Positions 7,774 to 39,477 of a stretch of DNA of 42,249 nucleotides are shown here, piece by piece (the stretch's first letter is position 1; every line of letters starts with the position of its first letter). The notes under the pieces were generated by a model. It searched no databases, was not told the DNA's origin, and was given only the letters and a program-made list of their open reading frames with translations. The DNA is from an uncultured Oscillospiraceae bacterium. GTDB taxonomy: Bacteria > Bacillota > Clostridia > Oscillospirales > Ruminococcaceae. The position numbers and the translations under genes were made by a program. The stretch is taken from NCBI GenBank assembly GCA_900540595.1, contig UQGL01000023.1:1-42249 (forward strand), read 5' to 3'.

Positions 7774-8571
7774 ATGAAAACAGCATTGACCATTGCTGGA
7801 AGTGATTCCAGCGGAGGCGCCGGTATCCAGGCAGATATCAAGACGATGACCGCTAACGGCGTTTTTGCCATGAGCGCCATCACGGCCCTGACTGCCCAGA
7901 ACACGACCGGCGTGACCGACATTTTTGAGACGACCCCGCATTTTCTGGCTGAGCAGCTTGACGCGGTCTTTACCGACATCTACCCCGATGCCGTCAAGAT
8001 CGGTATGGTATCCTCGGCAGAGCTGATCGGCACGATCGCCGACAAGCTGCAGGAGTACAGCGCTAGGCACATTGTGGTGGACCCCGTTATGGTGGCAACC
8101 TCCGGCTCCAAGCTGCTGCGGGACGATGCCGTGGATGCACTGACCGCAAGGCTGCTGCCGATGGCGGAGGTGCTGACCCCGAACATCCCCGAGGCAGAGA
8201 TACTCTCCGGCATGTCCATCAAAAATGCCGCCGATATGGAGAAGGCCGCGCAGACCATCAGCGAGAAATACGGCTGTGCCGTGCTGTGCAAGGGCGGCCA
8301 CCAGATCAACGATGCCGATGATCTGCTCTGGCGCAGCGGCGCAGGCAAATGGTTCCGCGGCCGCCGCATTGACAACCCCAATACCCACGGCACCGGCTGC
8401 ACACTGTCCAGCGCCATTGCGTCTAACCTTGCCAAGGGCTATGACCTCGACACCTCGGTTGAGCGCGCCAAGGCGTACATCTCGGGCGCACTGGCTGCCA
8501 TGCTCGACCTCGGGCACGGCTCCGGCCCGATGGATCACATGTTCGCACTGAAGGGAGAGTTCACCGAATGA
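7774..8571 (+). CDS. thiD: Hydroxymethylpyrimidine/phosphomethylpyrimidine kinase ThiD
   Basis: A 265-residue ribokinase-fold enzyme that converts HMP to HMP-P and HMP-PP for ThiE. Signatures: ALTIAGSDSSGGAGIQADIK at the N-terminus, GVFAMSAITALTAQNT, VVDPVMVATSGSKLL, LTPNIPEAEILSG, CKGGHQ and NTHGTGCTLSSAIASNLAKG, which carries the GTGC anion hole. GAAAGGAAG precedes ATG 7774. The stop overlaps the ATGA of cytX, indicating coupling of kinase and transporter. Confidence 0.97.
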   Translation: MKTALTIAGSDSSGGAGIQADIKTMTANGVFAMSAITALTAQNTTGVTDIFETTPHFLAEQLDAVFTDIYPDAVKIGMVSSAELIGTIADKLQEYSARHIVVDPVMVATSGSKLLRDDAVDALTARLLPMAEVLTPNIPEAEILSGMSIKNAADMEKAAQTISEKYGCAVLCKGGHQINDADDLLWRSGAGKWFRGRRIDNPNTHGTGCTLSSAIASNLAKGYDLDTSVERAKAYISGALAAMLDLGHGSGPMDHMFALKGEFTE

Positions 8572-9737
8572 AAAAGACATCTACCCTTCAGAACGGTTTG
8601 ATCTGGTTCGGCGCCGGTGTTTCGCTGGCGGAGATTTTAACAGGCACGGCCTTTGCCCCGCTGGGCATGGCCAAGGGTCTGGCAGCGATCCTTGTCGGAC
8701 ATATCATCGGCTGCGCCATGATGCTGCTGGCGGGCCTGATCGGCGGCCGCACCGGCCGCAGCGCCATGGAGACCGTCAAGATGAGCTTCGGCCAGAAGGG
8801 CGGCCTGCTGTTCGCCTTTTTGAATGTGCTGCAGCTTGTCGGCTGGACGGCCATTATGATCTATGACGGCGCACTGGCTGTCGGCGGTATCTTTGACATC
8901 GGCCGCTGGGTCTGGTGTCTGGTGATCGGCGCACTGATCATCCTCTGGATCGCGGTGGGCATCACCGATCTGGGCTGGCTCAACAAGCTGACGATGGCAG
9001 CATTGTTCGTGCTTACGCTGGTGTTGTGCAAGGTCATCTTCTTCTCCGGCAATGCCATGCCCGACCTTACCGGCGAAAGCCTGACCTTCGGCGCGGCGGT
9101 GGAGCTGGCGGTGGCGATGCCTCTGTCGTGGCTGCCGCTGATCAGCGACTATACCCGCGATGCTGAAAAGCCGACACAGGCAACATGGGTCAGCGTGATC
9201 GTCTACGGCCTTGTATCCTGCTGGATGTATGTCATCGGCATGGGCGCGGCCATCTTCACCGGTGAGTATGACATTGCCGTCATCATGGTCAAGGCCGGTC
9301 TGGGCATTGCCGCACTCGTGATTCTGGTATTTTCGACCGTTACCACGACCTTCCTCGATGCTTGGAGCGCCGGTATCTCTGCCGAGAGCCTGACGCCCAA
9401 GCTGGACGGCAAAAAGACCGCCATCGCTGTGACGGTCATCGGTGTCGCGGGGGCGATCCTCTTCCCGATGGACGACATCACCGGCTTCCTGTATCTGATC
9501 GGCTCGGTCTTTGCGCCGATGATCGCCGTGCAGATCGCAGATCATTTTATCCTCAGGCGTGACCGCTTTGCGGTGGCCGCCGATGCACGGAACCTTGTGA
9601 TCTGGCTGATCGGCTTCCTTGCCTACCGCCTGCTGATGGGGGTGGACACCCCCGTGGGCTACACCCTGCCCGCCATGGTGCTGACTGTGCTGCTCTGCAT
9701 CCTTGCAGAGAAGATTAAGCCGACCGTGAAGGCATAA
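8568..9737 (+). CDS. cytX: Hydroxymethylpyrimidine transporter CytX
   Basis: A 389-residue NCS1-family permease with about twelve membrane segments. The N-terminal motif WFGAGVSLAEILTGTAFAPL and the following GLIGGRTGRSAMETVKMSFG are typical of CytX, the HMP permease found in thiamine salvage operons. Overlap ATGA with thiD and position behind the TPP riboswitch support the role. It brings in the pyrimidine that ThiD then phosphorylates. Confidence 0.93.
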   Translation: MKKTSTLQNGLIWFGAGVSLAEILTGTAFAPLGMAKGLAAILVGHIIGCAMMLLAGLIGGRTGRSAMETVKMSFGQKGGLLFAFLNVLQLVGWTAIMIYDGALAVGGIFDIGRWVWCLVIGALIILWIAVGITDLGWLNKLTMAALFVLTLVLCKVIFFSGNAMPDLTGESLTFGAAVELAVAMPLSWLPLISDYTRDAEKPTQATWVSVIVYGLVSCWMYVIGMGAAIFTGEYDIAVIMVKAGLGIAALVILVFSTVTTTFLDAWSAGISAESLTPKLDGKKTAIAVTVIGVAGAILFPMDDITGFLYLIGSVFAPMIAVQIADHFILRRDRFAVAADARNLVIWLIGFLAYRLLMGVDTPVGYTLPAMVLTVLLCILAEKIKPTVKA

Positions 9738-15739: not shown

Positions 15740-17089
15740 TCAACAGGGCTGGGTCTGCCGCTGCTTTAAAAAGTGGATCGTCATACCGGTGCAGTAGGCC
15801 AGCGCCAGCGCCCAGGCGGCGGGGTTTGCAAGGCAGATGCCCAGAAAGCTGCTGCTGGATACGGCAGCCCAGCCGCAAACAGCGCGGCCGATCAGCTCTC
15901 CCACGCCGCTGAGGACAGCGTGCAGGCTGTAGCCCATGCCCTGCAGGGTATTGCGCAGGATCATCAGGGAACCGTGGAAGCAGAAGAGGCAGCTGATGAC
16001 GGTCAGATACTCCACCGACAGCACTGCGGCCTGATCGGAGGCCTGCCCCAGCACCATCTGGGTAAAGGCAGTCTTGCCGAAGAACAGTACCACCCAGGCG
16101 GCTGCGCAATAGATCCACTGGATGATAAGGCCGTCCCGAATGCCCTGCCTGATACGGTCGTAGCGGCGGGCACCCTCGTTCTGGCCCACAAAGGTCGCCA
16201 TGCCCATGCCAACGGATTCCATCGGCAGGGTGAACATCTGGCGGATCTTATCGCCCGCCGTCTGGCCTGCAATGGCGGCAGTGCCCAGCGCGTTGATGGC
16301 GCTCTGCAGCAAAACAGCGCCGATGGCCGACACTGAGTACTCAAACCCCATCGGCAGGCCGACGCGGCAGAGCGCGGCGGCATGGCGGCGGGAGAATCCG
16401 CGCAGCCCGGCACAGCTCTGCAGCAAATCAGTTTTGCAGGCCAGCCAGTACAGGTTTAGCAGTCCGCTGACGAGCTGGCTGGCCACGGTGGCAAGGGCAG
16501 CACCAACCACACCCAGCGGGAATACCGCCAGCAGCAGATAGTCCAGCACGATATTTAAAAAGCTGGATACCAACAAAAACAGCGTGGGGCGGCGGGAATC
16601 CCCGGCGGCCCGCAGTGCCCCGGCGCAGAAGTTGTACAAAATAGACGCCGGTATGCCTAAAAAGATGATGCGGATATAGCTTGCTGCCTGGGGCAGGATA
16701 TCCTCCGGGGTGTGGATGAGCCGCAGCATGGGCACCGCGAACGCATAGGTCAGTGCGGTAAAAGCAACGCCGAGCAGGCAGCACAGCCAGACACCGTTCC
16801 AGAAATAGCGCCGGAATTCGTCGCGATCCTTTGCGCCCACAGCCTGTGCCAGCGGAATACCGAAGCCTGCACACGCGCCCAGCACAAAACCAAGTGTCAA
16901 AAAATGCAGCGAATAGGTCGTACCGACAGCGGCCAGCGCGGACTCGCCCAGAAAGCGGCCGACCATAACGGTATCGGCAAAGGAATAGAACTGCTGGAAC
17001 AGGGTCCCGGCCACCAGCGGAAGCGAAAAAAACAGCAGCTGCTTCAGCGGATGACCGGTGGTCAGATCCATCGTGCTATTTCTTGACAT
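15740..17089 (-). CDS. MATE-family multidrug/Na+ antiporter
   Basis: A 449-residue membrane protein with twelve hydrophobic segments in two similar halves. Family marks: HPLKQLLFFSLPLVAGTLFQ, SFADTVMVGRFLGESALAAV in the first half and PMGFEYSVSAIGAVLLQSAI, ATFVGQNEGARRYDRIRQGI in the second. MATE proteins export cationic drugs or metabolites using Na+ or H+ gradients. The ATG at 17089 follows GAGG at 11 bases; a TTGCTT-17-TATACT promoter lies just upstream. Single gene. Substrate unknown. Confidence 0.92.
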   Translation of the reverse strand: MSRNSTMDLTTGHPLKQLLFFSLPLVAGTLFQQFYSFADTVMVGRFLGESALAAVGTTYSLHFLTLGFVLGACAGFGIPLAQAVGAKDRDEFRRYFWNGVWLCCLLGVAFTALTYAFAVPMLRLIHTPEDILPQAASYIRIIFLGIPASILYNFCAGALRAAGDSRRPTLFLLVSSFLNIVLDYLLLAVFPLGVVGAALATVASQLVSGLLNLYWLACKTDLLQSCAGLRGFSRRHAAALCRVGLPMGFEYSVSAIGAVLLQSAINALGTAAIAGQTAGDKIRQMFTLPMESVGMGMATFVGQNEGARRYDRIRQGIRDGLIIQWIYCAAAWVVLFFGKTAFTQMVLGQASDQAAVLSVEYLTVISCLFCFHGSLMILRNTLQGMGYSLHAVLSGVGELIGRAVCGWAAVSSSSFLGICLANPAAWALALAYCTGMTIHFLKQRQTQPC

Positions 17090-19995: not shown

Positions 19996-20048
19996 AACCG
20001 AGCAGAAGTCACCCGGAAGGGTGCGGATTCTGCTCGGTTTTCTTTTTA
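19996..20048. terminator. Bidirectional terminator
   Basis: AACCGAGCAGAA (19996-20007) and TTCTGCTCGGTT (20028-20039) pair, with an inner ACCCGGAAGGGT stem-loop. TTTTCTTTTT follows on the plus strand and TTATTTTTAT on the minus strand, so it can serve the convergent kinase gene too. Confidence 0.85.
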
Positions 20049-20115: not shown

Positions 20116-22383
20116 CTATTTATCGGCGGGGGGGGTAATGCGGAAACGCCGCACAACCTGCTCAAGCATGGCAATGTCCACAGGCTTCGAGAGATGCTCG
20201 TCCATGCCGGCCTCCTTGCTTTTTTGCATATCCTCCAAAAAGGCGTTGGCCGTCATGGCCAGAATGGGAATCGTTTTGCCAAGCGGATTTTCGCTGCTGC
20301 GGATGCGGCGGGTGGCCTCCAGACCATCCATGACGGGCATCTGCACATCCATCAGGATCATATCGTAGTCGCCCGGCTTTACCTTGGCAAAGGCATCTAC
20401 GATCTGCTGTCCATCGGGGTAGATCGTGCAGGTCGCGCCCTTGGATTCCAGCAGCATCTGCAGAATTTCCGAGTTGATTTCGTTGTCCTCGGCGCAGAGG
20501 AACTTCATGCCGCACAGCAGGGAATTATCCGCCGGAGCATCATCGATCTCCGGCTTCTGCACAAGGGCAGCCTCGGTATCAATGGGAAATTCCAGCACGA
20601 CCTCAAAGCGGGAGCCTTGGCCGGGGGCACTTTCCACGCTGATGACACCGCCCATCAGGTCCACAACGCTCTTGGTAATGGCCATACCCAGTCCCGTACC
20701 CTGCACATGGTTGGTGCCGGACTTTTCCTCCCGCGTGAAGGGGTCGAAAATGGTTTTCTGGTAGGCATCACTCATGCCGATGCCGTCATCCTGCACGATG
20801 AATTTGTACTTGGCGTAGTGCGCATCGCGGGGAAGCTCCTCGACCTCAAGCCGGATATGCCCGCCTGCGGGCGTGTACTTGACCGAATTGGAGAGGATAT
20901 TCATCAAGATCTGGTTCAGGCGGTTGGGGTCGGCCAGCACATGCTCATGCTGTACCGAGGTCGTGACCACGCGGAATTCCTGATTGCGCTGGTGGGCCTG
21001 CTCGCTGATAACGCTCTCGACCTGCTCGATCTGCTGCAGAAGGTCCAGCTGCTCGATATTCAGGGTGGTCTTGCCGCTCTCGATGCGGCTCATATCCAGA
21101 ATGTCGTTGATGATGCCGAGCAGCAGACGCCCGGAGCTTTCCAGCTTTTCAAGATGCTCAGCCAGCTTGTCCGGCTCGTGCAGCTCGTTTTTCATCAGGG
21201 TGGTGATGCCGATGATGGCGTTCATCGGTGTGCGGATATCGTGGCTCATGTTGGACAGGAAATCTGTCTTGGCCTTGCTGGCGCGCTCGGCACCCTGCAG
21301 GGCATCCACAGCAACCTCCTGCGCGCGCTTCAGCTCGGCATTGCGCGCGGTAAGCTGCTGGTTGTAGCTTTCCAAACGCAGATTTGTCTCCTGCTCGGCC
21401 TGCAGGGCATCGCGCTGCATATCCCTTTGCAGTCTCCAAAGAATCAGAATGGTGGAAAGTGAAAAGACAGTGGCAAAGCCTATAATGATGGCGGTCACCA
21501 AATCTACCAGCTTTTGGGTGTTGGTGGCAACATCATCTGCCGGAACCAGAAACGCCAGCGTCCATGCAGCGTTTTCCATCTGCTTGAGGGAGTAAAAATA
21601 CTCGGTGCCGTCCAGAACGGCGTTGGAGTAGCAGACACCGTTCTCTTGCAGCTCTGCCTTTGCCTGCTGAAAGGACGAGCCGTGCAGGTAGGACATTTGA
21701 GAAAGCACAGTGTAGACATTCTGACCCTTCAGCAGCTCGGTATTATTGCTGTTGAACAGCTTGAGGCCGTTGTTTTCCAGCACATACACGCTGTTGTGGT
21801 CATCGTAGGCATCACAGCGGAAGTATGTGTTCAGCTGCTCCATGCTCTGCGCAATGCCGTAGTAGCGCAGGCTGATTTGCGCTGTGCCGGCTTGCAGTGT
21901 GATGGGAGTATCCAACCGCTTTAAGAATACCATGCGGGAATCGCTTTCCGTCAGCGAGTTGGTAACATAGTTGACCCATTCCGGGTCGTCCTCAAGGTAG
22001 TGCATCTCCCGCAAAAGACCTCGGTTGCCCTGCTGGGTGTAATACCGCCCGGCGGAATCAACGACCAGCAGGGTGATCTGCTTTTCTTCCAGATTGGAAA
22101 GGGCGGATACCCGCTGCAGATACGCATACAGGTCGGTGTCGGTCTGCAGGTCGGTGCCAATCAGGTAATTGCACTGCACATCGACATCTGCCCAACGGTT
22201 GCCAATAACATCCTCCAGATTGCGGAACATCTGGTGGGTGATCTCCTCCATCTGGTTCAGGCGTTCTTTATAGACAAGATTTTTGATATAGGTCCGGCTC
22301 AGGACAAAGAAGCCCGCGACTGCCGCAAGGCTGGCGAAGATGCAGGCCAGCAGGATGCGGCGGTATTTTTTATCCTTCCACAT
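20116..22383 (-). CDS. Hybrid sensor histidine kinase with receiver domain
   Basis: A 755-residue membrane sensor. Membrane segment 1 (about 10-30) is followed by an extracytoplasmic sensor region of about 250 residues (Cache-like), membrane segment 2 (about 275-298) and a coiled coil. A HisKA domain follows with His381 in [18 protein letters not shown], then a HATPase with [13 protein letters not shown] and [18 protein letters not shown], and a receiver domain with phospho-acceptor Asp679 in [13 protein letters not shown]. There is no DNA-binding output, so the phosphate must pass elsewhere or the protein acts by interaction. The start at 22383 follows GGAG at eight bases; it overlaps the upstream lipoprotein gene by 14 bases, so the two are translationally coupled. 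Confidence 0.93.
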
Positions 22384-24190
22384 TTTGCGGCTCCGTTTCG
22401 TCCCATGCGGCGTTTGCACGGCTCAGCGTCTCAAAAGAGCCGAAAAACGCCTTCGCAGCGTCCATGCCCACTACGCCGGAATCCACAACCTCAGCCTCAG
22501 CCGCCAGCTTGTCACTGACACCGCAGATGGCGACCTGATAGGTCTTGTCCTCCTGCACGGCGGCGGGGCTTACCAGCACATAGGGATAGCATTTTCCGTT
22601 GCCGTAGGCATCGTAGCCCTCGGTGAGCAGGTCATTGATCTGGCTACCGGTCAGCGTCACGGTCTGTATGGTGCGATTCCAGCCTGTGGGCAAAATGACC
22701 GACAAATCGTAGTCAGTCAGCCCCTTGGCGTACAGCTTGCCGCTGACGCCATAGTGGTTCTGTTCAGTGGGGTTGCCGGAAATCCATGTCCCCAGCGAGA
22801 CAAGGGCCAGATCGCTGCCGGTGGCCTCGGCAAAGCAGCGTCCCACAAGCCGGGCGCAATCCTCCTGCGGGATGTCCTCAGCCGCGGTGGTGATAAGATC
22901 GGGCGTGTTGTTTACGACCTTATCCTGATCAGCGTCCAGCTGGGCGATGACTTCGTCGATCGTGGCATCGCCGCGCATAAAGTCCAGCATCTTGTTGCCG
23001 GTGGTCACAATGGTATTCTCCCACCCGGAGTAGATAAAGGGTGCTGTGCTGCCGAAATTCAGCGCATCGGCAATGTCGGTGTAATAGGTGTCGTTCGCTT
23101 TGGCGTTCTTAAAGGGCATCAGGCTGCTTTTGACTTTGGTTTCGGGGTACAGTGCAGTGGTGCCCTCGACGGTGGAAAGCACACGCATGACCTTTAAAGC
23201 ATCCTCCAGCTTTTGGGGGTTCTGCTCCAGCCGCTTGTTCAGGCCGAAATAGCGGTTCACATTCAGCACAAAGACATTCTGGCTGCCGTCCTCGGAAAGG
23301 TAGGGCATCAGGCCGAACTTGTCGCGGGTGCCGTCTGCCTCCACAATGCCGTTGGTGCTGCCCAGCAAAAACAGGGCATCGCCGTTGATCATTCGCTGGC
23401 GGGTCACCTCGTCGCTGGTGGGGTCGCCGTCACCGTTCAGCATACCGATGTCCCGCCATTTCTGGATATACGCCATGGTCTCCATCATACCCGGCGTGCC
23501 GCTGACATTGGCCTTGCCGGACAGGTAATCCTTCTGCCAGCGTTTGCCGTCCAGCGTACCGAGAAAGCCTGCGTCCGCAATGTTGCACATATACTGGAAC
23601 CCATAGCCGGGGTACTGGCTCTGCGGCAGGCAAAGCGCCACACCTGCAGCCTCAGCCTTTTCGGCAAGCTGCTCCAGCTCGGCAAAGCTGGTGGGTACTG
23701 TCCAGCCGTTTTGCTGCAGCAGGGTCTTGTTGTAGGTGATGCCGTAGCAGTTGTAGACCGAGGGCAGCAGATAAATGGCACCGTTGTCCGTGACCTCCTG
23801 CAGGCGGGATTCAATGTAATTGTCGGTGAAATCATAGCCCGCAAGGTCGATGAGCTGGTCGCTCATGTCATCGGTCATCGGGTTATAGACCGTGACGGTG
23901 CAGATGTCCGGCAGGTCATGGGCCTCGATCATATTTTGGATGCAGGAGGTCGTGTTGTCACCGCTGTAGGGAACGATCTCGATATTCACTTCCGGGTAGA
24001 TGCTGTGGACCTTGTCGATAAAGGCCTCGACATTCAGGTATGGTGCCATAAAGGTGACAGCCTCATGTGCCGTGGACTCACTGGTGGCAGGTGCAGCGGC
24101 TTGACTGGCAGCACAGGCGGTAAGCAGGGCCGCTGCGGTGAAAAGGCTCAGCCCCCGAAGCGCCATGCACCGGAAATGGTTGTTCATCAT
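22370..24190 (-). CDS. Lipoprotein: solute-binding domain fused to 5'-nucleotidase C-terminal domain
   Basis: A 606-residue lipoprotein. The signal peptide ends in a lipobox with Cys26 (ALLTAC). Residues about 45-430 are an ABC sugar-type solute-binding domain (LPDICTVTVYNPMTDDMSD, YLLPSVYNCYGITYNKTLLQ, WRDIGMLNGDGDPT, GDALFLLGSTNG). Residues about 445-585 match the C-terminal substrate domain of 5'-nucleotidases (FAEATGSDLALVSLGTWISG, YDLSVILPTGWNRTIQTVTL followed by TGSQINDLL, QEDKTYQVAICGVSD). The metallophosphoesterase catalytic domain is absent and the GGGIR arginine and PFGN phenylalanine positions are changed. No ABC permease lies nearby. It overlaps the hybrid kinase gene, so it is probably its ligand-presenting partner. 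Confidence 0.88.
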   Translation of the reverse strand: MMNNHFRCMALRGLSLFTAAALLTACAASQAAAPATSESTAHEAVTFMAPYLNVEAFIDKVHSIYPEVNIEIVPYSGDNTTSCIQNMIEAHDLPDICTVTVYNPMTDDMSDQLIDLAGYDFTDNYIESRLQEVTDNGAIYLLPSVYNCYGITYNKTLLQQNGWTVPTSFAELEQLAEKAEAAGVALCLPQSQYPGYGFQYMCNIADAGFLGTLDGKRWQKDYLSGKANVSGTPGMMETMAYIQKWRDIGMLNGDGDPTSDEVTRQRMINGDALFLLGSTNGIVEADGTRDKFGLMPYLSEDGSQNVFVLNVNRYFGLNKRLEQNPQKLEDALKVMRVLSTVEGTTALYPETKVKSSLMPFKNAKANDTYYTDIADALNFGSTAPFIYSGWENTIVTTGNKMLDFMRGDATIDEVIAQLDADQDKVVNNTPDLITTAAEDIPQEDCARLVGRCFAEATGSDLALVSLGTWISGNPTEQNHYGVSGKLYAKGLTDYDLSVILPTGWNRTIQTVTLTGSQINDLLTEGYDAYGNGKCYPYVLVSPAAVQEDKTYQVAICGVSDKLAAEAEVVDSGVVGMDAAKAFFGSFETLSRANAAWDETEPQNVEG

Positions 24191-24253
24191 GTGGATAGTT
24201 CCCTTCAGTTTTTCGTATCGCTTTCCCTCGATTATTATGAAAGAATGTTATAA

Positions 24254-24282
24254 GTTTATCACTTAGACACATTGATTGCAAG
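24254..24282 (-). promoter_or_regulatory. Promoter of the lipoprotein-kinase operon
   Basis: Minus strand: TTGCAA (24282-24277), 17 bases, TAAACT (24259-24254). The leader of about 55 bases carries AAGGGA before the ATGATG start. Confidence 0.65.
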
Positions 24283-24325: not shown

Positions 24326-24362
24326 GGAAAAGAAACATCCCGGCTGCTGGGCAGCCGGGATG
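24326..24362 (-). terminator. Terminator of the metal ATPase gene
   Basis: CATCCCGGCTGC and GCAGCCGGGATG (24336-24362) form a perfect 12-base stem with a 3-base loop. On the minus strand it is followed by TTTCTTTTCC. Confidence 0.9.
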
Positions 24363-24376
24363 CGGTCGGGTACTCG

Positions 24377-26449
24377 TTAAGTTAGCAGGTTTGTCATGCT
24401 CTTCAGGCTGACGCCCAAGGTGGAGGCATTGTGCAGCAGCGCGGAGGTCGCAGGCGGCAGAATGCCCATGGCGCCCAGCACGATCAGCATGCTGTTGAAG
24501 CTCATGATAAAGCGGTAGTTGGCGCGGGTGCGGTGCTGCAGACCGTTGGCGATGGCTTTCAGGGTCACCAGTTCCCGCAGGCTGTCGGCGGCAATCGTGA
24601 TGTCCGCGATCTCGCGCGCAATGGCGGCGCCGTCACTGATCGCAATGCCGACATCAGCGGCAGACAGGGCCGGGGAGTCGTTGATGCCGTCCCCCAGCAT
24701 AATGACGGTGCGGCCTGCGGCCTTTTCGGCATCGACAAAGCGGGCCTTATCCTCAGGCAGGACCTCGGCATAGTAGGCATCCACACCGACCTGCTTTGCG
24801 ATGACAGAGGCCGTGCGGTCGTTGTCGCCGGTCATCATGACCGCCTTTTGTATGCCAAGGCCGCGCAGCTGGCGAAGCACCTCGGCGGCCTCCGCGCGCA
24901 GGGGGTCGGCAATGCAGATGACGCCGGCCAGCACCCCGCCGATGGCAAGATACAGGTGGGAATACTCCGGCGGCAGGGCGTCAAATTTGGCGGTCTCAGC
25001 CGTCGGGATATAGCAGCCCTCATCCTCAAAGACAAAGTGCTGGCTGCCGATGACGGCCTTCTCGCCGCCGATGGTGCTGGCAATGCCGTGCGCTACGACA
25101 TACTGCACCTCGCTGTGCATTTCATCATGGCGGATGCCCCTTGCGGAAGCAGCCTGCACAACGGCGTTTGCCATCGAGTGGGGATAATGCTCCTCCAGGC
25201 AGGCGGCAATGCCAAGGACCTCGTCCTCTGTGCGGGTGCCGAACGGCACGATCTGCACAACGGTCGGGGTGGCATGGGTCAGCGTGCCGGTCTTGTCAAA
25301 AACAATGGTGTCGGCGTTGGCCAGTGCCTCAAGATACTTGCCGCCCTTGACCGTGATGTGGTAGCTGCCGCACTCCCGCATGGCGGACAGCACCGCCAGC
25401 GGTATCGAGAGCTTCAGCGCGCAGGAGAAGTCTACCATCAAAATCGAGATGGCGCGCGTTGCGTTGCGGGTAAGCGCATAGGTGACGGCCGTGCCCAGCA
25501 GGCTGTAGGGCACCAGCTTATCGGCCAGCGCTGCGGCGCGGGTCTCGCTGGCGGATTTCAGCTTTTCGGAGTTTTCGATCATCCGGACGATCTGGTCATA
25601 GCGGCCGCTGCCAGCCTGCTGCTCAACCGTCAGGGTGATCTGGCCCTCCTCCACAACGGTGCCTGCATAGACAACAGCACCGGCCGCCTTGCGCACCGGC
25701 TCGGCCTCGCCGGTCAGCGAGGCTTGGTTGACGCTGGCCTCACCGTCCAGCACTCTGCCGTCCAGCGGGATCACGCTGCCGGTATGTACGATGATGGCAT
25801 CCCCGGTGCGGATCTGCGAAATCGGGACAAGAACCTCGCCCTCGGTGGTAAGCTGCCAGACGCGATCCACATTCAGCGACATGCAGTGGGCCAGATCGCC
25901 CAGCGACTTTTTGCGGGTCCATTCCTCGAGCAGCTCACCCAGCCGCAGCAGGAACATGACCGAGCCTGCGGTGGAAAAGTCCCCCCGCAGCATAGATACC
26001 CCGATGGACAGTGCGTCCAGCACCTCGACCTCCAGTCTGCGGTGCAGCAGGCAGCGCAGACCGTGCCAAAGGTAGCGCACACTGCATACCGCCGTGTAGG
26101 CAAAGCGTATCGGTGCAGGCAGGAACAGCTTGCGCGCAAAGTGGAAAAGCGTCAGATTGACGAGCTTTTCCTGATACTCATGGTTTACGGCGCGCGGGCT
26201 GTTGGCGGATACCTCGGTCAGGGCCTGCACATCAAAGCGGAAGGCGGCTGCACCGTGCAGTACATCGGTGCGGGCACCCGTGTAGGTGATGACGGCGTCA
26301 CAGGTGCGCTCATACACAACGGCGACGCGCACGCCGGGCAGATCGGCAAGGTAAGCCTGCAGCTGGTCGGCCTCGGCCATGGAAAGCCGCGGCTTGTTGA
26401 GATGCAGGCGGATGCGCCCGCGGCTCTCATGCAGAATGTTCCATTTCAT
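24377..26449 (-). CDS. P1B-type heavy-metal ATPase with atypical SCALKLS membrane motif
   Basis: A 690-residue P-type ATPase. An N-terminal HMA-like segment (GRIRLHLNKP, residues 9-80) lacks the CxxC metal site. The actuator domain has SLTGEAEPVRK. The phosphorylation site is Asp385 in FDKTGTLTHAT; MLGDGINDSPALSAADVG is the hinge motif and HYPHSMANAVV the P1B HP-type motif. Where most P1B pumps carry CPC or SPC in the membrane, this one has DFSCALKLS with Cys343, so the transported metal cannot be read from known rules. Gene order puts it behind the DUF6110 gene with a terminator-like hairpin between. GGGAG precedes ATG 26449. Confidence 0.92.
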   Translation of the reverse strand: MKWNILHESRGRIRLHLNKPRLSMAEADQLQAYLADLPGVRVAVVYERTCDAVITYTGARTDVLHGAAAFRFDVQALTEVSANSPRAVNHEYQEKLVNLTLFHFARKLFLPAPIRFAYTAVCSVRYLWHGLRCLLHRRLEVEVLDALSIGVSMLRGDFSTAGSVMFLLRLGELLEEWTRKKSLGDLAHCMSLNVDRVWQLTTEGEVLVPISQIRTGDAIIVHTGSVIPLDGRVLDGEASVNQASLTGEAEPVRKAAGAVVYAGTVVEEGQITLTVEQQAGSGRYDQIVRMIENSEKLKSASETRAAALADKLVPYSLLGTAVTYALTRNATRAISILMVDFSCALKLSIPLAVLSAMRECGSYHITVKGGKYLEALANADTIVFDKTGTLTHATPTVVQIVPFGTRTEDEVLGIAACLEEHYPHSMANAVVQAASARGIRHDEMHSEVQYVVAHGIASTIGGEKAVIGSQHFVFEDEGCYIPTAETAKFDALPPEYSHLYLAIGGVLAGVICIADPLRAEAAEVLRQLRGLGIQKAVMMTGDNDRTASVIAKQVGVDAYYAEVLPEDKARFVDAEKAAGRTVIMLGDGINDSPALSAADVGIAISDGAAIAREIADITIAADSLRELVTLKAIANGLQHRTRANYRFIMSFNSMLIVLGAMGILPPATSALLHNASTLGVSLKSMTNLLT

Positions 26450-26976: not shown

Positions 26977-27969
26977 TTATTCAGCGCACGGGCAGGCAAC
27001 GCGGCGCAGCTCTGTGGGGCGGCGGCCGGTATAGCGGCGGAAGGCAGCGGAAAAGCGGCTGGGGTCCTCATAGCCGACACGGTGCGCGATCTCCGCTACA
27101 GGCAGATCGCTCTCCTGCAGCAGCCGCGCGGCTGTGTCCATCCGCACGGTGCGCAGATAACCGGCCACCGGCACCCCATAGAGCGCCTTGAAGCAAAGCT
27201 TCAGGGAGCTTTGGGAGAGATGAAACTTAGCCGCCAGCTCTGCAAGGGTGATGCGGCTGTCCTGATGGGCAACCAGATAGTCGTGCGTCTGGCGGGTGCG
27301 CTCCAGCATGAGCCGGTCAAAATAGGGGGTGCGGGGCGTATCGGCGGCATAGCGGCTGATCAGGGTATCCCAGTGCGCCAGCGCGGCGCTTGCCACGCGG
27401 GGATCGTACATGATGCCGCTGTTTTTCTCGATCTCGCAGCGGCATGCCGCGCCGGTCATCGCGGCGCGGTAGCTGCGGCTGCTCATCATGGCATCGATCG
27501 AGTCCGCCACAGCGATAATGCGCGAGCCTAAAGGGATATCGGTCCCGGATAAGCCATCGGGGTAGCCGCGGCCGTCCCAACGCTCATGATGATGCAGGAC
27601 CAGCACGGCAATATCCTGAAAATCCGCGACCCTGCGCAGTATAGTATAGCCTGTGACGGGGTGGCGGCGCATCTCCTGCCATTCATCGGCGGTCAGCGGC
27701 CCGGTCTTGCGCAGCACGGCGTCCGGCACGGCGATTTTCCCAATGTCGTGCAGATGGGCGGCTATATGGATAAGCGCGGTCTCGTCCGGGTCCAGCCCCA
27801 GTGCGGCTGCAAGCACGAGGACCATGTCTGCAACGCGGTTGGAATGGCTGGCGGTATAGGTATCGCGGGCATCCAGCGCGGAGACAATGCTCTCGATCAA
27901 ATCGTGATACTGCAGCAGGTGCGCTGCAGCGTGCGGCGGGGCGGTCAACTGCCGGGGCTGGTCTGCCAT
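26977..27969 (-). CDS. HD-GYP domain fused to AraC-type DNA-binding domain
   Basis: A 330-residue cytoplasmic protein. Residues about 20-190 are an HD-GYP domain with HSNRVADMV, IHIAAHLHDIGKIAVPDAVL (the HD metal pair), LVLHHHERWDGRGYPDGLSG (the GYP motif) and LGSRIIAVADSIDAM. Residues about 225-325 are a twin helix-turn-helix AraC/XylS domain (ITLAELAAKFHLSQSSLKL, PVAEIAHRVGYEDPSRFSAA then FRRYTGRRPTELRR). HD-GYP proteins hydrolyse cyclic dinucleotides; the canonical residues appear present. A direct fusion to an AraC reader would link such a signal to transcription in one chain. GAAAGGAGATC precedes the start at 27969, whose promoter is covered by palindromes. Confidence 0.9.
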   Translation of the reverse strand: MADQPRQLTAPPHAAAHLLQYHDLIESIVSALDARDTYTASHSNRVADMVLVLAAALGLDPDETALIHIAAHLHDIGKIAVPDAVLRKTGPLTADEWQEMRRHPVTGYTILRRVADFQDIAVLVLHHHERWDGRGYPDGLSGTDIPLGSRIIAVADSIDAMMSSRSYRAAMTGAACRCEIEKNSGIMYDPRVASAALAHWDTLISRYAADTPRTPYFDRLMLERTRQTHDYLVAHQDSRITLAELAAKFHLSQSSLKLCFKALYGVPVAGYLRTVRMDTAARLLQESDLPVAEIAHRVGYEDPSRFSAAFRRYTGRRPTELRRVACPCAE

Positions 27970-28832: not shown

Positions 28833-29582
28833 TTATACCTCCTCATCCTGCACCTTGCGCCACGCAAGGGCAAACAGCACTGCGCCCAGCGCAAGGGTAA
28901 AGGCAAGCAGCCCCCAGTTGAAGGGGCGGGTGCCGTAGGTGACGGTGTGGGTGGCCTTGTCCCAGTTTGCCACTTCGTAGGCGCTCAGAGGAATGTAGTA
29001 CCCAAAGGGCACAAAATAACTGGCAATGGGCGGCATAAAGGCAGAGAACAACCCGACCAGCGCCCCCACAATACCTACGCAGAGCGCCGGAAGGGGATTG
29101 CCGACCCACAGCATCAGCAGAAACTCGCCGAAGAAAAGCATACAATCCACGGCCAGTGTGCAGACGAACAGATAGGCCAGCTGCCCCGTAGGAAAGACCT
29201 CGGTGTAGCCGTGGACGCGCCCAAGTACCGGCACGCAGACCAGCTCCAGCACCGTGACCAGCAGCACCTCCGACACGCCAAAGACTGCCTTGCCCGCAAA
29301 CAGGCTGCGGCGGCTCTGCAGGGTGTAGAGCAGCTTGGGGGTATTGCCCTTTATCTCCATATCCCACAGCCGGGAGGCCAGTACCGCCATCATCACCGGC
29401 ATCAGAATCGCCTCGATGACCGGCAGGCTGTAGAGCAGGGCACTGTAGCCGTTGGCCAGCTCATCCGGGTCTGCCGGGGCAAGGCCGCCCACCCACAGCA
29501 CGACAATGCCGGGGATGAGCAGGCAGAGAGCAAGGTCATGCCTACGGTGAGCTTTTTGCAGTTCTGCACGGAAAGCTGCCAT
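28833..29582 (-). CDS. Lantibiotic-immunity ABC permease, MutE/EpiE-like
   Basis: A 249-residue membrane protein with six hydrophobic segments. MAAFRAELQKAHRRHDLALC is a basic cytoplasmic start; EIKGNTPKLLYTLQSRRSLF in the first cytoplasmic loop recalls the MutE/EpiE group. GGGGAGGTGG precedes ATG 29582. The preceding ATPase gene ends one base upstream of the start. The set is typical of self-protection or resistance against lantibiotics, but no lantibiotic precursor or synthetase gene occurs in the window. Confidence 0.82.
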   Translation of the reverse strand: MAAFRAELQKAHRRHDLALCLLIPGIVVLWVGGLAPADPDELANGYSALLYSLPVIEAILMPVMMAVLASRLWDMEIKGNTPKLLYTLQSRRSLFAGKAVFGVSEVLLVTVLELVCVPVLGRVHGYTEVFPTGQLAYLFVCTLAVDCMLFFGEFLLMLWVGNPLPALCVGIVGALVGLFSAFMPPIASYFVPFGYYIPLSAYEVANWDKATHTVTYGTRPFNWGLLAFTLALGAVLFALAWRKVQDEEV

Positions 29583-29583
29583 C

Positions 29584-30473
29584 TTACGCCACCTCCCCGC
29601 TGGTCTGGGTCAGGCTGAGGAAGATGTCCTCAAGGCTCTTGGTCTGTGCAGTCAGCCCAACGACACCGGCACCGCTTTCGGCAAGGGTGCGGATCAGCGC
29701 GGCCAGTGCTTCATCCCGCAGCGGGGGAAGCTGCAGCGTGTCCGGCTGGTCGGTCAGCCTTGCGGCCGTCACCCCCTGCTGCTGCAACACGGCAAGAGCC
29801 TTGGGGGCTACCAGCACCCGCAGCAGCGTGCCGCCCCGGCTGTGCTTTTGCAGCTGCTGCAGCGAACCCTCGAACAGCAGCTTGCCGTGACTCAGGATGC
29901 CGACCTGATCCACCATCTGCTCGATCTCGCCCAGCAGATGGCTGGAGATCAAAACGGTGGCGCCGGTGGTCTGCGGCATTGAGGCAATAAGGCTGCGCAT
30001 TTCCTGAATCCCGGCCGGATCCAGACCGTTTGTGGGTTCGTCCAGAATCAGCAGCCTGGGGCTGCCCAATAGGGCCATAGCGATGCCGAGGCGCTGCTTC
30101 ATGCCCAGGGAATACTGCCCTACCTTCCGGTCAGCGTCCTTAGTCAGGTGTACGATGTCCAGCACCCGGCGGGTATCCCTGCGGTCAACGCCCTTCAGAT
30201 CGGCAACGATGGCCAGATTTTCCCGCGCAGTCAGGTGCAGGTAGCCGGAGGGCGATTCGATCAGGCTGCCGGTCTGCCGCAGCAGCGGGATACGGTTTTT
30301 CTCATTCATGGGCTGCCCCAGCAGCGCCACGCTGCCGCCGGTGGGATGCACAAGGCCCAGCAGCATCTTCATTGTGGTGGATTTTCCCGCCCCGTTGGGG
30401 CCTAAAAAGCCATAGACGCAGCCCTCCGGGACGCACAGATCCAAAGGGCATGGGTCTCAATCACAGGTTTCAT
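29584..30473 (-). pseudogene. Immunity ABC transporter ATPase with N-terminal deletion and frameshift
   Basis: From about 30441 down to 29584 an intact ATPase frame reads DLCVPEGCVYGFLGPNGAGK, a Walker A, then YSLGMKQRLGIAMALLGSPR (signature), LLILDEPTNGLDPAGIQE (Walker B) and SSHLLGEIEQMVDQ. The native start is clearly ATG 30473 with AAAGGAGA and MKPVIETHAL, but this is in another frame and ends at TAG 30402. The A-loop strand (usually TKRYGKxxALDHV, about 13 residues) is missing at the junction near 30445. In the ATPase frame only a TTG at 30444 without a ribosome binding site could start. The gene is therefore probably inactive or made at low level. Confidence 0.75.
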
Positions 30474-36590: not shown

Positions 36591-36631
36591 ACCTGCCCGC
36601 AATGACCACATATATCAGAAGGAGAGATACC

Positions 36632-37666
36632 ATGTTCAAGAAAATCGCAGCTTTGGGTGCTGCGGCTGTGCTGGGGATCGGTCTGCTGACCGGCTGCGGC
36701 GCATCCGCCTCCACGGCCGATGCAGGTTACAGCGCCGAGAACCCGCTGGTGCTGACGCTGGCCCACGGCCTGTCGGAGACCCACACTGTCCATATCGCCA
36801 TGACCCAGTTTGCGGAGGAGGTCAACGAAAAGACCGATGGCCGCATTCAGGTCAAGATCTTCCCCAACGGTCAGCTTGGCAGCGAGAACGAGAACCTTGA
36901 GCAGCTGCAGGCGGGTGTTATCGCCATGACGAAGGTCTCCGCCCCCGGCCTTGCCACCTACAACGAGGCCTACAACGCCTTCGGCCTGCCCTACATTTTT
37001 AATGACACGGAGGATTTCTACCATGTCATGGACTCGCAGGAGATGCAGGACTTCTTCCTCTCGACCGGCGAGGACGGCTTTGTCACGCTGACCTACTACA
37101 CCTCCGGTGCCCGCTCCTTCTACACGAAGGATAAGGCCATCCGCACCCCGGCAGACCTCAAGGGCCTGAAGATCCGCGTGCAGGATATGAAGAGCCAGAC
37201 CGATATGATGAGCTACCTCGGCGGTATCCCCGTTGCCATGTCCTACGGCGATGTCTATACCTCGCTGCAGACCGGCATCATCGACGGCACCGAGAACAAC
37301 GAGACCGCCCTGACCACCGGTAAGCACGGTGAGGTCTGCAAGGTCTACTCGGTCGATCAGCACGCCATGATCCCCGATGTACTGATCATGAGCGAAAAGG
37401 TCTGGAAGACCATCAGCCCGGAGGATCAGCAGATTCTTCTGGAGGCCGCCCACGACTCCACCGACGCCCACAAGGTCATGTGGGACACCGCAGTCGAGGA
37501 GGCCGTCAAGGAGGCACAGGAGACGATGGGCGTGGAGTTCGTCTACGATGTCGATAAGGAGGCCTTCCGCGAGGCCACCCAGCCGATGATCGAAGCCTAC
37601 GAAGAAGAGTATCCCGGCGTCAAGACGCTGATGGATACCATTGAAAAGGCAAGAGGGGAGGAGTAA
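36632..37666 (+). CDS. dctP: TRAP transporter solute-binding lipoprotein DctP
   Basis: A 344-residue lipoprotein with lipobox Cys22 (LLTGC). The TRAP binding-protein fold is shown by ENPLVLTLAHGLSETHTVHI, VKIFPNGQLGSENENLEQLQ, NAFGLPYIFNDTEDFYHVMD, LKGLKIRVQDMKSQTDMMSY and MSYGDVYTSLQTGIIDGTEN. Arg182 is the residue that normally clamps the substrate carboxylate; the TENNE stretch (220-224) lies in the second binding loop. AGAAGGAGAG precedes ATG 36632. First of three TRAP genes, four bases before dctQ. Confidence 0.95.
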   Translation: MFKKIAALGAAAVLGIGLLTGCGASASTADAGYSAENPLVLTLAHGLSETHTVHIAMTQFAEEVNEKTDGRIQVKIFPNGQLGSENENLEQLQAGVIAMTKVSAPGLATYNEAYNAFGLPYIFNDTEDFYHVMDSQEMQDFFLSTGEDGFVTLTYYTSGARSFYTKDKAIRTPADLKGLKIRVQDMKSQTDMMSYLGGIPVAMSYGDVYTSLQTGIIDGTENNETALTTGKHGEVCKVYSVDQHAMIPDVLIMSEKVWKTISPEDQQILLEAAHDSTDAHKVMWDTAVEEAVKEAQETMGVEFVYDVDKEAFREATQPMIEAYEEEYPGVKTLMDTIEKARGEE

Positions 37667-37669
37667 GCC

Positions 37670-38179
37670 ATGAAAAACACCTTTGCAACGATTAAATTCT
37701 GGATGGATAAGATCCTGAGCATCGCCTGTGCGATTCTGCTTTCCTTCATGACCATTCTGGTGCTTATTCAGGTATTCTCCCGCTATGTGCTCAACAGTCC
37801 CGTAGCCTTTACCGAGGAGCTTGTCCGCTACAGCCTGATCTGGACCGGTTTCATCGGCGCGGCCTACGCCTTCTCCACCCGTGAGCATATGTCGCTGACG
37901 CTCGTCCGCGACAAGTTCACCGGCAAGGCGCACACCGCCCTGCTGGTGGCCATTGACGGCCTGATTCTCCTGATGGCAATCTTCGTTTTCACGATCGGCG
38001 GCTTTAAGCTGGCTGTCTCTGCCAGCCGCGAGTTCTCGGCACTGCTGGGCATCCCCCGCAGTCTGGTTTACGCCATCGCCCCGATTTCCGGCGTGTTCAT
38101 TGTGATTGCGCAGATCATCAACATCTATGAGGACATCACCGGCGAAAAAGTAGAATCCAAGGAGGGTGCAGACAAATGA
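37670..38179 (+). CDS. dctQ: TRAP transporter small membrane subunit DctQ
   Basis: A 169-residue protein with four hydrophobic segments. The central signature VFSRYVLNSPVAFTEELVRY and SLIWTGFIGAAYAFSTREHM is typical of DctQ. GGGGAGGAGTAAGCC overlaps the dctP end as its ribosome binding site. It pairs with the large channel subunit DctM, whose gene overlaps by four bases (ATGA type). Confidence 0.95.
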   Translation: MKNTFATIKFWMDKILSIACAILLSFMTILVLIQVFSRYVLNSPVAFTEELVRYSLIWTGFIGAAYAFSTREHMSLTLVRDKFTGKAHTALLVAIDGLILLMAIFVFTIGGFKLAVSASREFSALLGIPRSLVYAIAPISGVFIVIAQIINIYEDITGEKVESKEGADK

Positions 38180-39477
38180 GTATCACCATGACCACCGTTA
38201 TCCTTTTCGCTGTGTTCGGCGTGCTGCTGTTCCTCGGCGTGCCCATCTCCATCAGCATTGTGGCATCCTCCATCGTGACGGCCATGTCTACCCTGTCTTG
38301 GGACCAGATCACCTTTATCACGATGCAGAAGATGAACTCCGGTGTTGAGTCGTTCTCTCTGCTGGCCGTGCCCCTGTTTATCCTGGCCGGCAACATCATG
38401 AACAACGGCGGTATCGCCAAGCGCCTTGTCAACTTTGCGCAGCTGTTTGTCGGCAAGATCCCCGGCTCGATGGCACAGGCCAACATCCTCGGCAACATGC
38501 TGTTCGGCGCGCTGTCCGGCTCCTCTGTTGCCGCTGCGTCTGCCATGGGCGGCTGCATCAGCCCCATTGAGGAGGAAAACGGCTACGACCCTGCCTACTC
38601 CGCCGCTGCGAACATCGCCTCGGCCCCCACGGGTCTGCTGATTCCCCCGACCTCCGCCTTCATCGTTTACTCCACCGTCGCGGGCGGTGTGTCCATCTCC
38701 ACCCTGTTCATGGCCGGCTACATCCCCGGCATCCTGATGGGCCTGTGCTGCATGGTCGTCGCCTTCATCGGCGCAAAAAAGGCCGGCATGAAGGCCACCG
38801 GCTTTGACCGCAGCCAGAGCGTGCTGAAAACCGTCTGGGATGCAGTTCCGTCCCTGCTGCTCATCGTCATCGTCATCGGCGGCATCGTCTCCGGTGTCTT
38901 TACCGCCACCGAGGGCGCGGGCATCGCGGTTCTGTACTGCCTGATCCTCTCCATCATCTATAAGAGCATCGACTTCAAGGGCTTCCTCAACATCCTGCTC
39001 AACTCCGCCAAGACGAGCGGCATCATCCTGTTCCTGATTTCCGCTTCCTCTGCCATGTCCTTCGTTATGGCGTACTCCGGCATCCCGGCCGCCATCTCCA
39101 ACGGCCTGATGAGCCTGACCGACAACAAGTATATCATCTTCCTGCTGATGAATATTATTCTGCTGGTCATTGGCATGTTCATGGACATCACCCCGGCCAT
39201 CCTGATCTTCACCCCGATTTTCCTGCCCATCGCCATCAGCTTCGGCATGACCGAGATTCAGTTCGGCGTTATGCTGATCTTCAACATGTGCCTGGGCAAC
39301 ATCACCCCGCCGGTCGGCTCTGTCCTGTTTGTCGGCTGCGGCATCGGCCATGTCTCCATCGAGCAGGTGACCTCCAAGCTGATCCCCTACTTTGTGGCAC
39401 TGGTTGCCGCCCTGCTGGCAGTCACCTATATCCCGGCGCTCTCCCTTGGTCTGCCCAGCCTCATGGGTTTGATCTGA
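38176..39477 (+). CDS. dctM: TRAP transporter large permease subunit DctM
   Basis: A 433-residue membrane protein with about twelve segments. DctM marks: LLFLGVPISISIVASSIVTA, VESFSLLAVPLFILAGNIMN, GALSGSSVAAASAMGGCISP, ASAPTGLLIPPTSAFIVYST, and near the end FNMCLGNITPPVGSVLFVGC. It forms the Na+-driven import path with DctQ and DctP. The terminator at 39497 ends the unit. Codon use matches the GH31 gene, in keeping with one operon. Confidence 0.96.
   Translation: MSITMTTVILFAVFGVLLFLGVPISISIVASSIVTAMSTLSWDQITFITMQKMNSGVESFSLLAVPLFILAGNIMNNGGIAKRLVNFAQLFVGKIPGSMAQANILGNMLFGALSGSSVAAASAMGGCISPIEEENGYDPAYSAAANIASAPTGLLIPPTSAFIVYSTVAGGVSISTLFMAGYIPGILMGLCCMVVAFIGAKKAGMKATGFDRSQSVLKTVWDAVPSLLLIVIVIGGIVSGVFTATEGAGIAVLYCLILSIIYKSIDFKGFLNILLNSAKTSGIILFLISASSAMSFVMAYSGIPAAISNGLMSLTDNKYIIFLLMNIILLVIGMFMDITPAILIFTPIFLPIAISFGMTEIQFGVMLIFNMCLGNITPPVGSVLFVGCGIGHVSIEQVTSKLIPYFVALVAALLAVTYIPALSLGLPSLMGLI

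Follow-up and report, generated by a model that had tools for sequence, protein, structure and literature searches.

Described sensors of similar design

XylFII-LytS, the D-xylose sensor of Clostridium beijerinckii, and LuxP-LuxQ, the Vibrio receptor for autoinducer-2 (AI-2), are two described counterparts of the gene pair analysed here, which encodes a lipoprotein with a solute-binding protein (SBP) domain and a hybrid histidine kinase. The pair lies in a stretch of 42,249 nucleotides (nt), hereafter "the window", from an uncultured Oscillospiraceae bacterium (contig UQGL01000023.1, assembly GCA_900540595.1). LuxQ is a hybrid kinase with a two-PAS ectodomain and a phosphorelay output, and the window pair resembles LuxP-LuxQ in joining a binding protein to a hybrid kinase whose ectodomain is predicted to be of this kind. 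LuxP, however, is a soluble periplasmic protein not known to carry a nucleotidase C-terminal domain, unlike the window lipoprotein. XylFII-LytS is also not known to have a 5'-nucleotidase-C domain, and its kinase is of the LytS type, in contrast to the HisKA hybrid kinase of the window. According to the accessible parts of two papers, XylFII is found in complex with the ectodomain of its sensor kinase (PMC10384115, PMC11113362), which is the combination of SBP and kinase ectodomain that the window pair would form. In the accessible part of the first of these, CuaD-CuaS-CuaR is the cellobiose sensor of Ruminiclostridium cellulolyticum, whose SBP-sensor contact was tested by two-hybrid (PMC10384115). 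As in the window, a lipoprotein SBP gene adjoins the gene of a sensor kinase with two transmembrane segments; CuaS differs by its HAMP domain, by a receiver going unmentioned in that part of the paper, and by an adjacent regulator gene and an ATP-binding cassette (ABC) operon alongside (PMC10384115). Mature CuaD, given there as 410 residues long, has therefore no room for an added C-terminal domain (PMC10384115).

The fused 5'-nucleotidase-C-like domain sets the window pair apart from these three systems. The 5'-nucleotidases themselves (PDB 3ivd and 3ztv) share this C-terminal domain with the window family, as judged by profile (E 4.1e-6 and 0.1, respectively), whereas the window family is without the metallophosphatase half and the window's branch without the nucleoside-pocket motifs. 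No description of such a fused lipoprotein with its kinase was found in the literature searched, which covered few subscription papers or preprints and is thus weak evidence of absence. The combination suggests that some gut Clostridia use a two-part sensor, for nutrients or signals, of a variety not yet described. To our knowledge, environment sensing by Faecalibacterium and related gut commensals is poorly described, and the recognisable two-domain signature offers a handle on it: at the loci read, hybrid kinases accompany the fused proteins and importer permeases do not.

Gene pair and domain composition

Both genes are on the minus strand, with the following features:

22370..24190, minus: putative receptor lipoprotein, 606 residues (open reading frame (ORF) list; Pfam; AlphaFold2, mean predicted local distance difference test (pLDDT) 85.4)
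24113..24190, minus: signal peptide and lipobox LTA-C, residues 1-26 (sequence reading)
22907..24070, minus: family-1 solute-binding domain, residues ~41-428 (fold and profile match)
22391..22897, minus: divergent 5'-nucleotidase C-terminal-like domain (C-domain), residues ~432-600 (family profile to 3ivd)
20116..22383, minus: hybrid histidine kinase, ATG start at 22383 (ORF list, Pfam)
21529..22281, minus: extracytoplasmic sensor region, probably dCache-like, with two PAS-like alpha/beta units after a long helix (AlphaFold2)
21073..21273, minus: HisKA dimerisation/phospho-acceptor domain (PF00512, E 2.7e-18)
20587..20931, minus: HATPase_c (PF02518, E 1.6e-27)
20152..20499, minus: receiver domain, Response_reg (PF00072, E 2.7e-22)
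24335..24363, minus: terminator-like hairpin with a stem of 13 bp, upstream of the pair (consensus match only)
19998..20016, minus: terminator-like hairpin with a stem of 7 bp, downstream of the kinase (consensus match only)

The 14-nt overlap claimed in the original prediction holds for the kinase ATG at 22383, which falls within the last codons of the lipoprotein gene; the longest kinase ORF, which starts with a GTG at 22419, would extend the overlap to 50 nt. The two hairpins bracket the genes, which counts in favour of the sensor proposed below, and the region holds 8 terminator-like sites where 4.4 are expected from shuffles.

The lipoprotein carries what we take to be a lipobox, LTAC, whose Cys26 is invariant across 19 aligned sequences, the window's included. 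Faecalibacterium lipoproteins (L001:8001-9788, L003:13832-14659) have before it the sequence SRRxFL, presumably a twin-arginine-like motif, which the window protein is without. The next domain belongs by fold and profile to the family-1 (sugar) SBPs. Pfam finds SBP_bac_8 (E 6.1e-16), and the sugar-binding proteins AcbH, RafE and a chitin-oligosaccharide-binding protein are among the matches listed for this domain; a sugar-like ligand would be plausible for it. No entry named LuxP is among the best 60 and best 50 SBP matches listed. The VIA-align matches fall mostly on residues 41-428, and no 5'-nucleotidase is among those listed, an absence that excludes nothing as the C-domain is little covered.

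The C-terminal domain is divergent. Its match to 5_nucleotid_C (PF02872; E 0.0074, 16.8 bits, below the cut-off of 23.6) is insufficient alone, but a chance match was rejected because relatives score far better (L109 at E 3.4e-33, the best, and L110 at E 1.2e-29) and a 14-sequence profile of the domain finds the nucleotidase 3ivd. Eight of the 16 fused relatives scanned exceed the PF02872 cut-off (24.4 to 115.4 bits). No metallophosphatase domain is found in the window lipoprotein by Pfam at E <= 1, so that the catalytic domain of 5'-nucleotidases such as UshA and NadN is missing from it. Pfam and the family profile thus bear out what had been read from the letters, namely an ABC-type SBP fused to a relative of the substrate domain of 5'-nucleotidases without the metallophosphatase. 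The original prediction would have been refuted by a C-terminal region unlike that of 5'-nucleotidases, and the match of the family profile to 3ivd speaks against this.

The window kinase has the domains of a hybrid histidine kinase, and none of the 36 kinases paired with a fused lipoprotein lacks the H-box His or the receiver Asp. The AlphaFold2 model of the first 363 residues of the window kinase (mean pLDDT 85.0) displays a long helix, two PAS-like units and then another long helix, and the ectodomain is, by its predicted fold, probably dCache-like. Twelve paired relatives were scanned for the dCache_1 family at thresholds of 0.01 and 0.1, and eight gave a match (E 1.3e-9 to 0.004, all below the family's high cut-off). 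Against PDB sequences, the ectodomain returned unrelated weak matches only.

Recurrent pairing and correlated divergence

Homologous loci were collected via the lipoprotein or its C-domain and not via kinases, so the pairing was not selected for. Fused ORFs were counted in 51 loci and the window when they reached at least 550 residues and matched both the lipoprotein and the C-domain profiles, which gave 45, or 41 distinct ones after removal of copies with identical last 400 residues; many of the 41 stem from the same genera. The short loci L011-L031, L046-L097 and L112-L142, mostly shorter excerpts centred on the same matches or on weaker ones, stand outside this count. Shorter or broken ORFs were dropped, namely the remnants in L010, the lipoprotein of L106, which is split over two ORFs, and the first L036 lipoprotein and the L035 lipoprotein (contig edges).

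On the same strand and at most 400 nt away, a hybrid kinase gene accompanies 37 of the 41 distinct fused ORFs, downstream of 35 and upstream of two. The longest ORFs overlap in 25 of these 37 pairs, and the ectodomain profile is matched in 36. Of the two pairs counted as upstream, L099 is kinase-first, while the lipoprotein of L098 at 10176 also has kinase pieces (two ORFs) on its 3' side. The four unpaired ORFs are both lipoproteins of L032, at contig ends (the start of a kinase ectodomain is visible at one, G147:C7:5258-5437), the second tandem lipoprotein of L099, and L033, at a contig edge. In the genome-contig collection, all nine intact loci have the kinase directly downstream, and in the tenth, L010, both genes are reduced to remnants. 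Furthermore, no importer permease ORF of the BPD type is found within 5.7 kb of the fused genes in the loci examined, the nearest being at 5.8 kb, and BPD_transp_1 is absent from the 28 window ORFs scanned with Pfam. The SBP gene thus adjoins a sensor kinase gene without a dedicated permease. The original prediction had reported no ABC permease nearby and had proposed a survey of homologues, in which kinases and not ABC permeases are now found to be the neighbours.

Ten homologues without the C-domain provide a control: seven further matches of SBP length (L154-L160), L037, L043, and L044 at 16014. Permeases of the BPD_transp_1 type adjoin seven of them, recognised by Pfam at L037, L043, L044, L154, L157 and L158 and by likeness to the L043 permeases at L155, which is a near copy of L154. 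Neither a permease-like nor a kinase-like ORF was seen in the neighbourhood of L156. The contrast between fused proteins, with hybrid kinases and no permeases, and SBP-only homologues is strong but not absolute.

Divergence of the SBP domain and of the C-domain correlates with that of the kinase ectodomain (r 0.93 each). With 30 of the 36 pairs kept after dropping six near copies, both still track the ectodomain when the kinase core is controlled for (partial r 0.77 and 0.76, respectively; 0/999 permutations). Taken from these sequence comparisons, the coupling of lipoprotein to kinase appears well supported.

In three loci, two different fused lipoproteins stand in tandem with one kinase (L032:1567-5258, where the kinase is only begun, L036:2734-5628 and L099:7593-11482), suggesting heteromeric or two-ligand receptors. 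In others, a second sensor pair stands beside the fused one, consisting of a lipoprotein of 270-285 residues and another hybrid kinase (L003:13832-17228, L006:9207-12213, L042:4151-7112, L098:2060-5021 and L104:2941-5923). This second lipoprotein is an SBP_bac_3 protein in both loci scanned (L003 and L006), which makes them arrays of binding-protein/kinase pairs.

Proposed sensor and its output

The pair is, in our judgement, likely to be an extracellular sensor in which the lipoprotein binds a solute, docks on the hybrid kinase and switches it. The lipoprotein would be anchored outside the membrane and bind in its SBP cleft a solute that is most probably a sugar or an oligosaccharide. Either or both of its two domains, SBP and C-terminal, would dock on the putative dCache-like ectodomain, and docking would switch autophosphorylation of the kinase, up or down. 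Phosphate would then pass from His to Asp within the kinase, to a separate Hpt protein and on to a response regulator encoded elsewhere. In the window's branch, the nucleotidase-C-like domain, having lost its pocket motifs, would probably act as a coupling or docking module. Such a pair would work like XylFII-LytS, CuaD-CuaS and LuxP-LuxQ, and the likeness in logic to the last of these, drawn in the original prediction, is upheld.

As to output, the likely target in some Faecalibacterium relatives would be a GGDEF-REC-HD protein, acting on cyclic di-GMP (c-di-GMP) and encoded directly downstream. L003 (4-nt overlap), L004 and L152 have a GGDEF-REC-HD_5 gene after the kinase, L010 has one after a kinase remnant, and Hpt domains score over cut-off in 8/8 genomes searched. 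These neighbours and Hpt domains make a phosphorelay to c-di-GMP enzymes plausible in some relatives, and the window pair may by extension have a similar one.

Several observations weigh against this sensor. The window kinase has no dCache_1 match in Pfam at E <= 1, and four of the 12 paired relatives scanned (L034, L036, L038 and L100) have none at the thresholds given above. No regulator or Hpt gene adjoins the pair in the window, and in L001, L002, L008 and L149 the kinase is not directly followed by a gene with a receiver. Linked genes share their history and correlated trees arise without contact, so the partial correlation is no proof. At L033, no kinase is within reach; the contig edge precedes the fused gene, and a Xan_ur_permease gene is found further downstream. 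Kinase neighbours as such are, moreover, common in this SBP family: a YesM-type (PF06580) kinase is near four of the ten SBP-only homologues (L037, L043, L157 and L160), at L160 directly downstream and with no BPD permease as a neighbour. Finally, a 460-residue SBP at L159:3881-7375 lies directly 3' of a hybrid kinase gene, with a formate/nitrite transporter gene downstream, and the C-domain is therefore unnecessary for hybrid-kinase pairing.

The SBP-only homologues also bear on two other explanations. The lipoprotein could be the SBP of a distant (orphan) ABC importer, co-transcribed with the kinase by happenstance; its SBP domain is of an ABC sugar-importer family, and importers and kinases do co-occur, since SBP-only homologues adjoin both (permeases in seven of ten, YesM-type kinases in four of ten). 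The pairing with hybrid kinases nevertheless recurs across SBP distances averaging 0.70, and with the nearest BPD-like ORF 5.8 kb from a fused gene in the loci examined, the neighbourhoods disfavour an orphan importer, which we regard as very improbable. Alternatively, the C-domain might bind a surface structure such as the cell wall or mucin and so only position the receptor, with no part in signalling. Its loss of pocket motifs while keeping a confidently predicted fold would fit such a role, as would the L159 SBP, paired with a hybrid kinase without any C-domain; but the C-domain and the SBP domain track the divergence of the kinase ectodomain about equally well, and a purely positional role seems unlikely to us.

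Nucleoside-pocket motifs and the ligand

In 5'-nucleotidases, NGGxR, P[FY]xN and GDG[FY] are what we take to be the nucleoside-pocket motifs. Aligned with 3ivd and with the L103 nucleotidase, the window protein reads NHYGVSGKLY at the enzymes' GGIR and PTGWN at their PF, and GDG[FY] is absent, so that it has 0/3 motifs; the altered arginine and phenylalanine ligand positions, already noted from the sequence, are confirmed by these alignments. The window's branch, with none of the motifs, comprises 28 of the 36 paired members (window included), and the other eight (L109, L110 and L143-L148) keep at least two. A precomputed PF02872 match is present in 119 of the best 120 of 211 homologues of the L109 lipoprotein, the exception being P0177 (466 residues); names on these homologues are few and generic among the matches listed. 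In two pocket-bearing loci, a Metallophos_2 phosphoesterase gene lies directly 3' of the kinase (L147:3034-3528 and L148:10362-10835).

The original prediction of a surface receptor for a sugar and/or nucleotide-like ligand stands in part: the fused lipoprotein pairs with a hybrid kinase and not with an ABC importer, but the nucleotide-like ligand is weakened because all three motifs are absent from the window's branch. A dual-ligand receptor, with sugar bound by the SBP domain, a nucleoside or nucleotide by the C-domain and both inputs integrated by the kinase, is possible, although we lean against it. The eight members with at least two motifs would agree with it, as would the strong PF02872 matches of L109 and L110, both without a Metallophos match at E <= 0.01, and the Xan_ur_permease gene downstream of the fused gene of L033. 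Set against these are the window protein and 27 other members, with 0/3 motifs. A nucleotide ligand thus appears doubtful for the window protein, and the idea is better suited to the sister, pocket-bearing branch.

The two branches, with motifs kept or lost, make a role of the 5'-nucleotidase-C domain outside the enzyme directly testable, and if the pocket-bearing branch does bind nucleosides, it would mean bacterial sensing of extracellular purines via a dedicated receptor. In a still wider and rather doubtful scheme, gut Clostridia would possess a new family of receptors with two inputs, in which the nucleoside-binding half of a 5'-nucleotidase, deprived of its enzyme half, and a sugar SBP were fused and so gave a hybrid kinase its ligand subunit. 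Extracellular nucleosides or nucleotides, along with a sugar, would be the input of the pocket-bearing branch, whereas in the Faecalibacterium/Blautia branch the pocket would have become a module for docking on the kinase, in places feeding c-di-GMP signalling.

Distribution

The family is patchily distributed and its members are diverse. Named relatives belong to Faecalibacterium and Gemmiger and, more distantly, to Blautia, Brotaphodocola and Hominifimenecus; the four best matches to the window lipoprotein share 77-81% identity with it. A single-sequence scan of the genome contigs found no relative, and an alignment-based scan found ten loci; tblastn gave no match in plasmids. The family is present in 8 of 31 genomes of the Faecalibacterium relative's genus (E <= 1e-20), in 4/60 of the Blautia relative's genus (E <= 1e-25), in 6/297 of the family of G001 (E <= 1e-25; one of them, G319, SBP-only) and in 2/295 of the order of G003 (E <= 1e-30). 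The pocket-bearing branch occurs in 7/295 genomes of its own order, and across the phylum its lipoprotein was found in 1/398, the source itself (E <= 1e-30, at most three candidates scored per genome). The C-domain profile matches in 31 of 391 genomes of the class (E <= 1e-5), the weaker matches including true nucleotidases (L103 was checked).

Integrase or serine recombinase genes lie directly upstream of the lipoprotein gene at L038:10501-11352, L039:6508-7359, L001:5937-7541 and L004:6044-7525, which fits horizontal spread and mobility of the cassette. Conversely, the remnants of both genes at L010:7857-8806 (Faecalibacterium sp. I4-3-84) indicate that the pair can be lost.

Surroundings of the pair in the window

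Other features recognised by Pfam in the window are:

8568-9737: Transp_cyt_pur transporter
15740-17089: MatE transporter
24377-26449, minus: P-type ATPase, upstream of the pair on the same strand
26977-27969, minus: HD_5-AraC protein, upstream of the pair on the same strand
28833-30444: ABC-2 type transporter
36602-39477: TRAP transporter

Downstream of the pair, a convergent ORF of 210 residues has no Pfam match. The HD_5-AraC gene was considered as a member of the system and rejected: the P-type ATPase gene and a terminator-like hairpin intervene, and the protein is without a receiver domain. Its combination of an HD_5 (HD-GYP-like) domain with an AraC-type DNA-binding domain is, in our judgement, unusual, and the protein is a putative cyclic-dinucleotide phosphodiesterase and transcription factor in one.

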